Source: Haloplasmatales bacterium 4B
GTDB taxonomy: Bacteria > Bacillota_I > Bacilli_A > Haloplasmatales > Haloplasmataceae
Assembly: GCA_003586005.1 (NCBI GenBank)
Contig: NSKI01000013.1
Span: 1-57,324, forward strand
Length of the DNA: 57,324 bases
Direction of reading: 5' to 3'
The notes under the pieces were generated by a model. The model did not search any database, was not told where the DNA came from, and saw nothing but the letters and a program-made list of their open reading frames with translations. Within the stretch, counting starts at the first letter, position 1. Each line of letters begins with the position of its first letter. Both the position numbers and the translations under genes were made by a program. This document shows, one piece after another, positions 6,775 through 13,447 of this stretch.

Positions 6775-7641
6775 ATGAAAGTGGATGCTTTTTTTGAAGG
6801 TGGAGGTATACTAGGAGTTAGTTTTATAGGTGCATACAAAGCTTTAACTGAAAGGGGAATTTGGATTGAAAAAGCTGTAGGTATTTCTTCAGGGTCATTT
6901 GTAGCCGCACTTGTTATTTGTGGATATACCGCCAATGAATTAATTGAAATGTTAAATACTAATTTTACTATATTTAAACAAAAAACGATAATTTCTGAAA
7001 AGAATTATCTTGGAAAACCCTTATCTATTTTACTTAAAAAAGGGATTTACGATAGTCAAGCAATCGAAGACTTTGTTGATAAAGCACTACAAAAAAAGGG
7101 AGTTCAATATTTTAATGATGTCACTTATAATGGTGAAAGCAACTTAAAAATTATCGCAAAAGATTTTACAAATAAAAGATTGTTATTATTACCTAATGAC
7201 TTACCTCAATATGACCATGATCCTGGTTGTTTTAAGATAGCTAAAGCTGTTAGGATGAGTTGTTCAATACCGTTTTATTACATACCCTATATATTAAAGT
7301 CTAGAAATAAAATTAATTATATTGTTGATGGAGGGATAATAAAAGATATTTCAACCTCTATTATTAATAATAATAATAAATTAACAAAATTAACATTGAG
7401 ATTTAAAATTAAGGATAAACGGAAAAAGTGGTTTGATAAAATTAATTCATCTAATAACATCGATTGTGCTAATGATAATAGGGAATATGAAAGGTTAATA
7501 ACCATTTTCCATGATGGTAAAATTAAACCAACTAGTTTTGATTTAAATAGAGAACAAATCATATATTTATATAACCAAGGTTATAAAGCGACTATTAAAT
7601 TTATTAATGATGAATTTTATAAAAAAAATCCTTGCAATTAA
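6775..7641 (+). CDS. patatin-like phospholipase
   Basis: Serine acyl hydrolase of 288 residues in the patatin/RssA family, probably cytosolic because no signal peptide is present. The oxyanion loop GGGILG (residues 9-14), the nucleophile elbow GISSG (Ser38) and the catalytic Asp in VDGG (Asp185) are all visible, so it should be catalytically competent. The likely substrate is a membrane lipid ester. It lies 15 bases after the WG-repeat gene, with a GAGGTGATATT ribosome site. The stop codon lies inside the terminator hairpin. Confidence 0.88.
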   Translation: MKVDAFFEGGGILGVSFIGAYKALTERGIWIEKAVGISSGSFVAALVICGYTANELIEMLNTNFTIFKQKTIISEKNYLGKPLSILLKKGIYDSQAIEDFVDKALQKKGVQYFNDVTYNGESNLKIIAKDFTNKRLLLLPNDLPQYDHDPGCFKIAKAVRMSCSIPFYYIPYILKSRNKINYIVDGGIIKDISTSIINNNNKLTKLTLRFKIKDKRKKWFDKINSSNNIDCANDNREYERLITIFHDGKIKPTSFDLNREQIIYLYNQGYKATIKFINDEFYKKNPCN

Positions 7642-7745: not shown

Positions 7746-9047
7746 ATGAGAGACCAAATAAAAGAGCTCGTTAAATATTTTAGGAAAAATGAAAAGCCTA
7801 AACAAGAATTTAAATTAGGTGTTGAATTTGAGTATTTTGTTGTTGATGTGAATAGTTTAAAAGTAATAAGTTATGATGGGGATAATGGCTTAATGAATAC
7901 TTTTGAAGAACTTTTAAATAAAGGCTTTCAAGGTCTTTATGAAAATAAATTTTTATTGGGATTAAAGAAAAATGGCTCTACAATTACATTAGAACCAGGT
8001 AGTCAACTAGAAATCAGTATTAAGCCACATAAAAAAGTAAATGATATAGAAACAGAATATTTGGAGATATTATCTGATTTGTTGACAATATTAGAAGAAA
8101 AGGGACAAATGCTTTTAGCAACTGGATATCAAGTCCAAAATAAACTTGATGAAGTAAATATTATACCTAAAAAGCGATATGAGCATATGAGTAATTATTT
8201 AATTAAGAGAGGCTCAATGTCGATAAACATGATGAAACAAACTGCTTCAACACAAGTATGTATTGACTATGAAAGCGAAGAAGATTTTCAAGATAAATAT
8301 CGTATTCTATACACGTTAAGTCCAATATTTTATGCTTTTTTTGATAATTCACCTTTTTTTGAGGGGGATATTTATCCGAAAAACTGTATTCGTTCCCAGA
8401 TTTGGGATAATTGTGATAACGAACGTTGTAATATTATGGCAGAAGTATTAACAACGAATTTTAATTATGAGTCCTACGCTAAATTTATATTAAAACAAAA
8501 AGCAATTGTTTTTGAAAATAAATTTACAGATCAATTATTTACAGATTTATTTAATACATCTGATTATAAATCTAATGAACTTGAACATATGCTTTCTATG
8601 GTGTTTCCTGAGATTCGACTTCGTTCATTTATTGAAATAAGAATATTTGATTCTTTACCATATCCCTTTAATTTATCTTTAGCTGCTTTGATTAAAGGTA
8701 GCTTTTATAGTAGTGATAATTTAAAAGATTTATCTAAATTTATTAAAGAAATTAATTTTGAATCAGTATTGCAAGCTAAAAATAATATAATTGAAAAAGG
8801 GGTTCATACAATTTATAATGGACATCGAATTTATGAATTTATGAAATGTTTGCTTTCATTAGCAATTAAAGGGTTAGATGAAGAAGAAAGAAAATATTTG
8901 ATTCCAATTTCTCGTTTAATTCAATTAAAAATGAACCCAAAAGAATACACTACAAATTTAATTGATTTAGGGAAATTGAATGCCCTAAATTGGTGCATTA
9001 TAAATAAAAAAGGTTGGGAGAGTATAAAATGGATTCAAGCCGTGTAA
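7746..9047 (+). CDS. gshA: glutamate-cysteine ligase (GCS2-type)
   Basis: ATP-dependent ligase that joins L-glutamate and L-cysteine through the gamma-carboxylate, the first step of glutathione-type thiol synthesis in the cytosol. The 433-residue length fits. Family landmarks are LGVEFEYFVVD near residue 25, the glutamate/metal-site region TITLEPGSQLEISIKP near residues 80-95, TASTQVCIDY near residue 160 and the arginine-rich RLRSFIEIRIFDSLPYP near residues 295-311. An extended -10 (TGATATAAT, 7672-7680) lies upstream. The 3' end overlaps the next gene, an ATP-grasp ligase, by 19 bases, and a dehydrogenase follows, so the three are probably translated together. No classical gshB is visible in the window, so the overlapping ligase is the candidate for the second step. 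Confidence 0.85.
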   Translation: MRDQIKELVKYFRKNEKPKQEFKLGVEFEYFVVDVNSLKVISYDGDNGLMNTFEELLNKGFQGLYENKFLLGLKKNGSTITLEPGSQLEISIKPHKKVNDIETEYLEILSDLLTILEEKGQMLLATGYQVQNKLDEVNIIPKKRYEHMSNYLIKRGSMSINMMKQTASTQVCIDYESEEDFQDKYRILYTLSPIFYAFFDNSPFFEGDIYPKNCIRSQIWDNCDNERCNIMAEVLTTNFNYESYAKFILKQKAIVFENKFTDQLFTDLFNTSDYKSNELEHMLSMVFPEIRLRSFIEIRIFDSLPYPFNLSLAALIKGSFYSSDNLKDLSKFIKEINFESVLQAKNNIIEKGVHTIYNGHRIYEFMKCLLSLAIKGLDEEERKYLIPISRLIQLKMNPKEYTTNLIDLGKLNALNWCIINKKGWESIKWIQAV

Positions 9048-10360
9048 ATAATGAGTATATAAAAATTGTGAAAGAGAAAGTTATTTATGAGGATTATTTA
9101 AACACTATAAAAAAAGTTAGTGAATCTGATGCAAAATATAAAGGGAAGCCAATCCCCTTTTTATATCATCCATTATTTATTACTGAAAGTGATTTATTTA
9201 ATTTTAACAAACTTGTAAAAATAATGATGTCTATTTCTAATAAAGTTGTTGACCAGTATTTAAAATCACCTCAATTTAGAAATAAATTTGGATTTTCTAA
9301 ACTATTAGAAAGATTAATTTTAGCAGATCATGGCTATAAAACGAATATTCCTATGGGGAGATTTGATATCTTTTATAAAGATGGTAACTTTAAATTTTGT
9401 GAATTAAATACAGATGGATCATCAGCAATGAATGAAGATAATACTTTAGCACAGATTTTATTAAATACCAAATCGATTCAAAAAATGAAGGAAAAATATC
9501 AAATTGACTACTTAGATTCTATCAATTCATGGGTTGATGAAAGTCTTGAAATTTATCAGGAATACTCAAAATCACCAAGAAAACCAGTAGTGGGAATAGT
9601 TGATTTTAAAGAGAGTGGAACAACAGCTGAATTCGTAAAATTTAAGAAAGCATATATAAATAAAGGGTGTGATACATTTATAATTGATGCGCGTGATCTA
9701 AAATACAATAAAGGAAATCTTTACTATCAAAATAATAAACTTGATTTAATTTATCGACGTCTTGTCACAAGTGAATTAATTGAAAGAAGTGATGAGATTA
9801 AAGATTTAATTAACGCTATTTTAGATAATGCTGTTTGTTTAATTGGACCAATAAAGTCGCAGATTATGCATAACAAAATTATATTTAAAATTTTACATGA
9901 TGAGGATACACAAATTTTATTTAATAGAGAAGAAGTTCAGTTTATAAAAGATCATATACCTTACACACGTCTTTTTTCTGAAAGTTATAATAATTTTCAA
10001 GAAGTTTATGTAAATAAAGATAAATATATTATAAAACCGTATGATTTATACGGATCAAGAGGAGTATATGCAGGTTTAAGCTTTACTCAATCGCAATGGA
10101 AAGAAATATTAAATAAATGTTTTAATAATAATTATTTATTTCAAGAATATTTTTATCCTTATCAAAGAGAGTTCATTGAGTTTGCAGAAAAAAAGGTGCA
10201 AGTTAACTTATTTAGTTATATTACAGGCCTATTTGTTTATAACGAAAAATTATCTGGCTTATATACGAGAATTGGGAAAAATCATATTATATCCGGTTTG
10301 CATGGATATTACACTGTACCCAATTTAGTTGTCAAAGAAAAAGTGATTGGCGAGGTTTAA
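9029..10360 (+). CDS. ATP-grasp ligase, glutathionylspermidine-synthase-like
   Basis: A 443-residue cytosolic ligase. The segment FKFCELNTDGSSAMNEDNTL near residues 125-145 parallels the substrate-binding loop of glutathionylspermidine-synthase-like and type-2 ATP-grasp enzymes. LIYRRLVTSELIE, a conserved basic/acidic pair, follows near residue 240, and KYIIKPYDLYGSRGVYAG near residues 335-352 is the nucleotide lysine and glycine-rich loop. The start chosen is the ATG at 9029, 7 bases after GGGAG; an in-frame TTG 15 bases earlier has no better site. It overlaps gshA by 19 bases. From context it probably adds an amine or amino acid to gamma-glutamylcysteine, either glycine (an alternative glutathione synthase) or another partner. 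That function is inference; the family is moderately certain. Confidence 0.7.
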   Translation: MDSSRVNNEYIKIVKEKVIYEDYLNTIKKVSESDAKYKGKPIPFLYHPLFITESDLFNFNKLVKIMMSISNKVVDQYLKSPQFRNKFGFSKLLERLILADHGYKTNIPMGRFDIFYKDGNFKFCELNTDGSSAMNEDNTLAQILLNTKSIQKMKEKYQIDYLDSINSWVDESLEIYQEYSKSPRKPVVGIVDFKESGTTAEFVKFKKAYINKGCDTFIIDARDLKYNKGNLYYQNNKLDLIYRRLVTSELIERSDEIKDLINAILDNAVCLIGPIKSQIMHNKIIFKILHDEDTQILFNREEVQFIKDHIPYTRLFSESYNNFQEVYVNKDKYIIKPYDLYGSRGVYAGLSFTQSQWKEILNKCFNNNYLFQEYFYPYQREFIEFAEKKVQVNLFSYITGLFVYNEKLSGLYTRIGKNHIISGLHGYYTVPNLVVKEKVIGEV

Positions 10361-10362
10361 AA

Positions 10363-11334
10363 ATGAATTTAGGTTTAAGGAATTATGAAATTGACAGTTA
10401 TTGGGAAGAAAAGTTAACTGAATTGGCTAATAAATATGAAGATTTATCTATTATCTATCTTTATGGAAAGAATATGTTAAAGTTAGCTGATGTTGAAATT
10501 CTTATTACTTCAAGATTTTCACTTGAAGACTTAAAGAATGCAAATAAACTAAAAATATTAATCATTCCATTTACGGGGATAAATAGTCTTCCTATAGAAG
10601 AATTAAAAAAGAAGAATATAATTCTTGTAAATACACATGCTCATGCTTCAATTGTTAGTGAACGTGCTTTTACCTTAGGATTAAGTTTGTTGGGTAGAGT
10701 AGTTGAACTAGATAATCAATTGAGAAAAGGATTTTGGATTGGTTATAATCAAGATTCTAATTGGCTATCTATTAGAGGACTAAGATGTGGAATTGTTGGC
10801 ATGGGTGAAATTGGTTTGAATTTGATTAATTATTTAAGTCCTTTTAACAATAAAATTATAACTTTAGAACGTTATAAATATAAACTTCAAAACAGCAGTA
10901 ACATTGAATTTTTAGATAATATTTCTGAAGTATGTAAAAATTCAGATATTATCTTTTTGTCTCTTCCATTAACAAAAGAAACATTTAATATCATAGATAA
11001 AGAAATTTTATTTAAAATGCAAGGCAAATATCTTGTTAATGTTGGTAGAGGAGAATTAATTAAAGAAGAAGATTTATATTTAGCGTTAAAAAAGAATATT
11101 TTAAAGGGAGCAGCGCTTGATGTTTGGTATCAATATCCACAAAAAAATGAAAAAATAAATTTTCCTTCTAAATACCCTTTTCAAGAATTAAGCAATTTGC
11201 TTTTATCTCCTCATTGCTCAGGAAATGAGATTAATAGTAAAATAAATGTGATAAATGACATTGTTTATAATTTGAATAATTACCTCAGTGGTAAAGATTT
11301 AAATAACATTGTTAATTTTGATAAAGAATATTAA
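10363..11334 (+). CDS. D-isomer-specific 2-hydroxyacid dehydrogenase family protein
   Basis: NAD-dependent oxidoreductase of 323 residues. The Rossmann motif GIVGMGEIG lies near residues 144-152, the substrate arginine in VNVGRGELI near residue 230 and the catalytic histidine in SPHCSG near residue 285. The usual acidic residue after LDV (normally in EEP) is replaced: the sequence reads ALDVWYQYPQ, placing Tyr where the catalytic Glu is expected. It therefore belongs to a divergent subfamily and may act on an unusual substrate or be weakly active. It follows the ATP-grasp gene by two bases with a GGCGAGGT site, so it belongs to the gshA operon. A link to thiol metabolism is inferred from position alone. 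Confidence 0.78.
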   Translation: MNLGLRNYEIDSYWEEKLTELANKYEDLSIIYLYGKNMLKLADVEILITSRFSLEDLKNANKLKILIIPFTGINSLPIEELKKKNIILVNTHAHASIVSERAFTLGLSLLGRVVELDNQLRKGFWIGYNQDSNWLSIRGLRCGIVGMGEIGLNLINYLSPFNNKIITLERYKYKLQNSSNIEFLDNISEVCKNSDIIFLSLPLTKETFNIIDKEILFKMQGKYLVNVGRGELIKEEDLYLALKKNILKGAALDVWYQYPQKNEKINFPSKYPFQELSNLLLSPHCSGNEINSKINVINDIVYNLNNYLSGKDLNNIVNFDKEY

Positions 11335-11833: not shown

Positions 11834-13447
11834 TTACCATGCCGCAATTGCACCATCACACCTTGATTCAGTTCCACCAACTAAAACTCCGGTTTTATTA
11901 TTTCGCCATATTATTTGACCACGACCAAAGCTACTAGTGTTATGTTCAATTTTGATTTGGTGACCTTTGGCAATTAGTGCATTAATTAAATCATTTGGCA
12001 TGGATTGTTCTACAGAAATTGAATTTTCTTTCAACCATTGCCAACGTGGTGCATCTAATGCCGCTTGAGGATTTAGCTTAAAGTCAATTGTATTCATTAA
12101 TACTTGCAAATGACCTTGAGGTTGCATAAAGCCACCCATAATACCAAATGATCCGACAGCTTCATTGTTTTTTGTTAAGAAACCGGGAATTATTGTGTGG
12201 TATGTTCTTTTTCCTGGTCTTAATACATTTTCATGATTTTCATTAAGTGAAAAATTATGACCACGATTTTGTAAAGCAATCCCTGTATTTGGTACTACAA
12301 GCCCTGAACCAAATCCCATGTAATTACTTTGAATATATGAAACCATATTACCATGGCTATCAGCGGTAGCTAAGTAAACAGTACCACCTTTTTGTGGATT
12401 TCCAACTTCTGGTAAAACAGCTGCGTCAGTGATTAGTTTTCTTCTTAATTTCCCGTATTCTTCACTTAATAAGTTAGATACATTCATTTTCATATTTTTG
12501 CTGTCAGTAATGTATTTTAGACCATCAACAAAAGCAAGTTTTATCGCCTCGATTTGCTTATGTATAGTTTCTGCATCATCTCGATTTGTGAAATAATCAT
12601 CTTTTAAGATGTTTAACCCCATTAATGTTACTAATCCTTGCCCATTTGGCGGAATTTCCCAAACATCAAATCCTTTATAATTTATCGAAATTGGTTCAAC
12701 CCATTGAGGATGATAATTTTCTAAATCACTTTTGCGAATATAACCAGAATAACATTTTGAAAAGGCATCAATTTTATCAGCTAATTCACCATGATAGAAA
12801 GCGATACCGTTTGTCTTAGCTATTAATTCTAAAGTTTTTGCATGATCATTTGACTTCCAGATTTCACCAGCTAACGGTGCTCTTCCAGATGGGGCAAATG
12901 TTTCAAACCAAGGTTTATATTCTTCTGATTTTAGATATTTTTGATAAATTATAAATGCGTTTTGCCAATTGAATGCAAGTGTAGGCGAAATAGGGAATCC
13001 TTCTTTTGCGTAGCTAATTGCAGGAGCTAAGACTTTTGTAAGTGGTAATTTTCCAAATTTTTGAGATAATTCTACCCAAGCTGAAACTACACCAGGAACT
13101 GTAACCGGGATAAAACCATAGCGAGGAATTTCCGTAATCCCTTGGTTTTTTAAGTTTTCGATTGTTAGAGACATAGGTGAGACACCGCTAGCATTTAGCC
13201 CATGAAGTTTCTTTTTTGTCCATACTAAAGCAAATGCGTCACCGCCAATACCATTTGAAGTAGGTTCAACAACTGTTAAACAACTTGCTGTAGCAATAGC
13301 AGCATCGATTGCGTTTCCGCCTAATTTTAAAATATCTAACCCAGCTTGAGCAGCAAGAGGTTGTGATGTCGCTACCATACCTTTTTTTCCATATGTTACG
13401 GTTCTTCTTGAGTTATATGGGTAGCCCATTGGGTTATTATCAAACAT
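11834..13447 (-). CDS. gamma-glutamyltransferase, cytosolic YwrD-like type
   Basis: Ntn-hydrolase that cleaves gamma-glutamyl bonds of glutathione and related peptides. The 537-residue precursor carries GGNAIDAAIATASCLTVVEP near residue 43 and the autoprocessing threonine in KGGTVYLATAD (Thr356), which becomes the N-terminal nucleophile of the small subunit. SNYMGFGSG and the glycine-rich GIMGGFMQPQGH segment follow. There is no signal peptide, so it resembles B. subtilis YwrD rather than secreted GGT. A strong promoter and a GGAGGT site precede it. Its closeness to gshA suggests recycling or degradation of an intracellular gamma-glutamyl thiol. A CcpN-like motif lies upstream of its promoter. 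Confidence 0.9.
   Translation of the reverse strand: MFDNNPMGYPYNSRRTVTYGKKGMVATSQPLAAQAGLDILKLGGNAIDAAIATASCLTVVEPTSNGIGGDAFALVWTKKKLHGLNASGVSPMSLTIENLKNQGITEIPRYGFIPVTVPGVVSAWVELSQKFGKLPLTKVLAPAISYAKEGFPISPTLAFNWQNAFIIYQKYLKSEEYKPWFETFAPSGRAPLAGEIWKSNDHAKTLELIAKTNGIAFYHGELADKIDAFSKCYSGYIRKSDLENYHPQWVEPISINYKGFDVWEIPPNGQGLVTLMGLNILKDDYFTNRDDAETIHKQIEAIKLAFVDGLKYITDSKNMKMNVSNLLSEEYGKLRRKLITDAAVLPEVGNPQKGGTVYLATADSHGNMVSYIQSNYMGFGSGLVVPNTGIALQNRGHNFSLNENHENVLRPGKRTYHTIIPGFLTKNNEAVGSFGIMGGFMQPQGHLQVLMNTIDFKLNPQAALDAPRWQWLKENSISVEQSMPNDLINALIAKGHQIKIEHNTSSFGRGQIIWRNNKTGVLVGGTESRCDGAIAAW

Follow-up and report, generated by a model that had tools for sequence, protein, structure and literature searches.

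A candidate two-step glutathione cassette of anaerobic Bacillota, composed of a plant-type glutamate-cysteine ligase and a circularly permuted ATP-grasp ligase

The window analyzed here, a stretch of 57,324 nucleotides from Haloplasmatales bacterium 4B, carries a gene for glutamate-cysteine ligase (GCL) whose 3' end overlaps the start of a second ligase gene, with a dehydrogenase directly behind and one further gene of interest on each side:

6775-7641, plus strand: patatin-like phospholipase, upstream of GCL
7746-9047, plus strand: plant-type GCL of the GCS2 family, 433 aa (Pfam GCS2, 4.6e-29)
9029-9047, plus strand: 19-base overlap of the GCL and ligase reading frames
9029-10360, plus strand: circularly permuted ATP-grasp ligase, 443 aa, a putative glutathione-synthase equivalent (AlphaFold2 model, Foldseek, invariant residues)
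10363-11334, plus strand: D-2-hydroxyacid dehydrogenase, 323 aa (Pfam 2-Hacid_dh_C, 6.5e-39)
11834-13447, minus strand: gamma-glutamyltransferase (Pfam G_glu_transpept, 1.1e-154)

The layout given in the first-pass annotation, namely a GCL, a ligase overlapping it by 19 bases and a dehydrogenase starting two bases past the ligase stop, is confirmed. The mechanical reading frame of the ligase opens at a TTG (9014) and its homologues begin at the ATG at 9029, the start from which the 19-base overlap follows. The nearby gamma-glutamyltransferase had been described as cytosolic and, by eye, displays no obvious signal peptide. The order of patatin followed by the GCL-ligase pair is common to the window and its relatives G001, G003 and G006.

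By its sequence, the window GCL is assigned to the plant type of the GCS2 family. It matches Pfam GCS2 with 102 bits against a cut-off of 21, and its profile matches the solved plant chloroplast GCLs over approximately 400 residues (E 1.2e-73). The nearest NCBIfam model is the plant-type TIGR01436, at 218 bits and thus under the equivalog cut-off of 463, and the second-best is EgtA.

The GCL and the ligase form a real conserved unit, with a linkage far above chance. Four of the seven further genomes in the window's family encode a relative of the ligase, and across all eight family genomes the GCL and ligase are either both present (five) or both absent (three). Beyond the family, relatives are found in named Tissierellia and clostridia, including Sporosalibacterium, Anaerosalibacter, [Clostridium] ultunense and Tepidimicrobium. 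In a sample of 291 genomes from the class of [C.] ultunense, the GCL is present in 30 and the ligase, counted by strong matches, in 20, every one of which also bears the GCL (hypergeometric 7.5e-24, uncorrected for phylogeny). As a rule the two genes adjoin or overlap, with a distance between -53 and +30 bases among 32 unfused pairs, and their sequence identities rise and fall together (mirror-tree r=0.93, with none of 5000 permutations as high). The two are moreover fused into single reading frames in the relative G003 (869 aa, L092:8985-11594) and in G217 (864 aa, L084:5962-8556), and these fusions stand far apart in the GCL tree. Four genomes in which the genes lie apart, Anaerosalibacter among them, retain both, and G582 combines the ligase with a stand-alone class-I (E. 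coli-type) GCL and has no plant-type GCL near the ligase.

A further arrangement is seen on plasmid pSRC2 of Selenomonas ruminantium (L105, 4885-9227), where a MATE transporter lies between the GCL and the ligase, the latter labelled a 'hypothetical protein'. The plasmid location suggests mobility and possible export, and the placement of the exporter raises the idea that the pair produces an exported or specialized gamma-glutamyl peptide rather than a bulk cellular thiol. This is improbable, as the pair is widely conserved, usually with no adjoining exporter, and among the known thiol routes tested no other was found.

Several neighboring genes and related loci were observed alongside these pairs. 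Upstream of the GCL, eight loci (e.g., L012:6077-6565) encode a YbaK-like aminoacyl-tRNA editing protein and four (L071:3513-4700, L069, L070 and L075) a cation diffusion facilitator, neighbors that bring cysteine and metal themes to the surroundings of the cassette. In four clostridial genomes that have no ligase, the gene immediately behind a diverged GCL, its start overlapping the GCL, encodes a glutamine amidotransferase of class II (GATase_4, EgtC-like; L156:1950-3957, L157:5247-7221, L158:5887-7975 and L159:5989-7966); these diverged GCLs make up one GCL clade and represent a separate gamma-glutamyl pathway. Genomes G134, G167, G220 and G267 (L152, L153, L154 and L155) have a GCL with no ligase or GshB detected, and may use gamma-Glu-Cys itself. 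Proteins of 826-861 aa (L087:4726-7311 and L094:5757-8237) resemble two tandem circularly permuted ATP-grasp units of the GSP_synth type.

The first-pass annotation had noted the absence of a standard gshB beside the GCL. In the window's genome, neither the GshB N-domain (PF02951) nor PF04262, the GCL domain of GshF and class-I GshA, was detected. The GshB N-domain is also absent from all 30 ligase-bearing genomes, and PF04262 from 29 of these, the sole carrier being G582 with its stand-alone enzyme. The ligase itself matches neither of the GshB domains, PF02951 and PF02955, and BshC of bacillithiol biosynthesis was detected in none of the 33 genomes tested, the window's genome included. The controls of the GshB, PF04262 and BshC searches gave matches where expected. 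Two weak PF02955 (GSH-S_ATP) matches in the window's genome proved to be YheC/D-like ATP-grasps and were rejected as GshB. In two similar clusters of this genome (L102:3422-5711 and L103:2156-4542), a YheC/D-like ATP-grasp lies beside a second ORF; that of L102 is an ATP-grasp resembling L-amino-acid ligases, and its L103 counterpart has a similar start.

The dehydrogenase is an accidental neighbor of the pair and unrelated to the conserved unit. It had been proposed to provide or consume the partner molecule of the ligase, and a three-enzyme pathway in which it supplies or consumes this partner, such as a D-hydroxyacid after the VanH-VanA model, would find support in its location in the window, two bases past the ligase on the same strand, and in its position adjoining the GCL-ligase pair in G001 and G003. 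The proposal is disfavored, however, by the distribution of the genes, which dissociate in both directions. Orthologues of 41-55% identity are present in G001, G002, G003, G004, G005 and G007, of which G002, G004 and G007 contain neither GCL nor ligase, while G006 has the pair and no orthologue; in those carriers from Clostridia that were tested, the closest proteins are distant paralogues, with approximately 25-32% identity across most of the sequence. In G002 (L162) and G007 (L163), the dehydrogenase lies directly 3' of the patatin gene. A tyrosine also occupies, as judged by eye, the usual position of the catalytic Glu (DVWYQYP), and the substrate loop bears NTHAHA. A role for the enzyme in a three-step pathway is thus very improbable. 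With its orthologue independent of the cassette, its assignment as VanH-like, to a D-lactate/glyoxalase route or as a formate dehydrogenase was likewise set aside. As an observation in its own right, the dehydrogenase belongs to an unusual subfamily that the window's family has conserved.

Since patatin and dehydrogenase are adjacent in G002 and G007, the pair appears to have been inserted between them, although the arrangement could also reflect loss of the pair from these two genomes. In a midpoint-rooted tree, the GCLs of the family to which the window belongs group within Tissierellales sequences (support 98/91). This favors acquisition by transfer, with Tissierellales as the probable source of the pair. 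The gamma-glutamyltransferase, previously suggested as a recycling enzyme, has a 66% identical copy in G002, where both thiol genes are missing, and is therefore not a dedicated partner. A gshB or gshF elsewhere in the genome, together with a trio that is not conserved, had been named as refuting the original proposal; the three-gene order is indeed not conserved, but the two-gene unit survives.

In Pfam, the window ligase alone matches CP_ATPgrasp_2 only (1.5e-5), at 24.5 bits where the curated cut-off is 32. No model of Pfam or NCBIfam names the ligase or is specific to its family, and a search of PDB sequences with the single protein returned nothing useful. The GSP_synth profile is matched by 22 of the 23 members of the ligase alignment, which makes its earlier description as glutathionylspermidine-synthase-like a fair one at the superfamily level; the best relatives score approximately 1e-15 against both GSP_synth and CP_ATPgrasp_2, and none of the 23 matches GSH_synth. 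An AlphaFold2 model built from the 23 sequences (pLDDT 88.6) finds its best solved folds, by Foldseek, in human, plant and yeast glutathione synthetase (GSS; 4e-18 for human to 1e-15), with the soybean homoglutathione synthetase among the top folds and with E. coli glutathionylspermidine synthetase GspS (6e-16) and YgiC behind GSS. Sequence identity is approximately 10-16% to the solved structures in this list and 12-16% to GSS. Profile alignment with hhalign gives 9e-7 against three eukaryotic GSS sequences, a value that gains from the use of three, and 1.3e-4 against the human sequence alone, compared to 7e-4 for GspS and 4e-4 for YgiC, while GshB (0.02) and Ddl (0.01) remain at control level.

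Residues R111, D113, E125, N127, S132, R244, K283, K336 and R414 are invariant in 22 diverse members of the ligase family. The first four align with R125, D127, E144 and N146 of human GSS, and S132, R244, K283 and K336 with S151, R267, K305 and K364, whereas R414 aligns with R450 in the global alignment only. Human N146, K305 and K364 likewise count among the catalytic residues. In work on the Trypanosoma brucei enzyme, R125 contacts the cysteine carbonyl and the equivalents of D127 and E144 magnesium, with S151 and R267 contacting the gamma-glutamyl moiety and R450 the glycine carboxylate (PMC2845819). Both GspS and YgiC share R111, D113, E125, N127, K283, K336 and R414 with the ligase. R414 was first read as evidence for glycine, and this was dropped because the Arg is also found in these two enzymes. 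The position of R244 is held by Thr in GspS and Lys in YgiC, and R244 thus leans toward GSS-like binding of the gamma-glutamyl group. The region of human E214 and N216, which also contact this group, has no counterpart among the conserved ligase residues, and the ligase alignment shows no conserved GGVA motif, the hallmark of the glycine loop in the eukaryotic enzymes. Taken by sequence and model, the ligase would share the fold and catalytic residues of GSS and stand apart from the GSH_synth family and its GGVA loop.

A product in which gamma-Glu-Cys is joined to a polyamine such as spermidine, in the manner of GspS or YgiC, draws on the GSP_synth matches, on the closeness of both folds and on the RefSeq label of E. 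coli YgiC as a peptide-spermidine ligase; it is nonetheless quite unlikely, for fold and profile match best to GSS, neither enzyme has R244, and these genomes would be left with no second ligase for glutathione. A non-glycine amino acid as acceptor, such as beta-alanine or serine, which would give a homoglutathione-like thiol, is also unlikely, if somewhat less so. The acceptor site is unlike that of eukaryotic GSS, with its GGVA loop unconserved, and the soybean homoglutathione synthetase, which uses beta-alanine as acceptor, is among the best folds, but most of the nearest fold relatives accept glycine and no gene for the biosynthesis of another acceptor was seen to travel with the pair. Taken more broadly, the prospect that the cassette produces an undescribed low-molecular-weight thiol of gamma-Glu-Cys and a non-glycine acceptor, which these anaerobic Bacillota would use as their main thiol, is rather unlikely.

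The favored reading is instead a two-step cassette for glutathione. The plant-type GCL would join the gamma-carboxyl of glutamate to cysteine, and the ATP-grasp ligase would then phosphorylate gamma-Glu-Cys at its cysteine carboxylate and transfer the resulting acyl phosphate to an amine; with glycine, the most likely acceptor, this would yield glutathione. The ligase is thus probably a glutathione synthase of EC 6.3.2.3, non-orthologous to GshB and GshF, drawn from the permuted ATP-grasp branch that includes GSS and GspS; linkage, co-occurrence, fusion, co-divergence, predicted fold, catalytic residues and the absence of GshB and BshC all argue for such a cassette. That gamma-Glu-Cys is the substrate is very likely, and glycine, the simplest acceptor, is proposed with moderate confidence. 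The suggestion of the first-pass annotation that the ligase acts as an alternative glutathione synthase or makes a different gamma-Glu-Cys amide stands as to a second ligase acting on gamma-Glu-Cys, given a pair that is widely conserved and twice fused, in a genome without gshB or a class-I GCL, with glutathione the likelier product.

No description of the GCL-ligase pair was found in the literature searched, which excluded most subscription journals. What appears new is that, in anaerobic Bacillota, a permuted ATP-grasp is paired or fused with a GCL of the plant type; the thiol could be new as well, should the acceptor not be glycine. Anaerobic Bacillota that have no gshB, gshF or bacillithiol genes would be scored as negative for thiol pathways, yet the cassette predicts glutathione or a close analogue in approximately 7% (20/291) of the sampled clostridial class, as well as in the window's lineage and in Selenomonas. 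Recruitments at the glutathione-synthase step are already known from GshB, eukaryotic GSS and the Ddl-like domain of GshF, and the ligase would, if the proposal is correct, add another ATP-grasp enzyme to this list.

Comparison with known systems places the cassette among several partial relatives. Like EgtA and the gamma-Glu-Cys system of haloarchaea, it would include an enzyme producing gamma-Glu-Cys, but the window GCL comes with a dedicated second ligase. The metabolic step proposed for this ligase is that of bacterial GshB, to which it bears at most generic ATP-grasp kinship. The idea of a GCL fused to an ATP-grasp, embodied in GshF (GshAB), is paralleled by the two fusions of this cassette, although GshF joins an E. 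coli-type GshA to a Ddl-like ATP-grasp, as opposed to a plant-type GCS2 and a permuted ATP-grasp. GspS and YgiC (GSP_synth, PF03738, matched by most ligase relatives) share with the ligase its fold, the Mg/ATP residues and an N-x-D signature; they differ in that the window ligase has a GCL partner, no amidase domain and, at the gamma-glutamyl position, the Arg that they lack, and its carriers contain no other glutathione synthase to supply GSH as a substrate. Eukaryotic GSS (human 2HGS, plant 5OES and yeast 1M0W) differs from the ligase in its E214/N216 and GGVA glycine loop and in the lack of a significant sequence match, but has the same permuted ATP-grasp fold in the predicted model, with catalytic residues and a gamma-glutamyl Arg and Ser in common, and it is the reaction of this enzyme that is proposed for the ligase.
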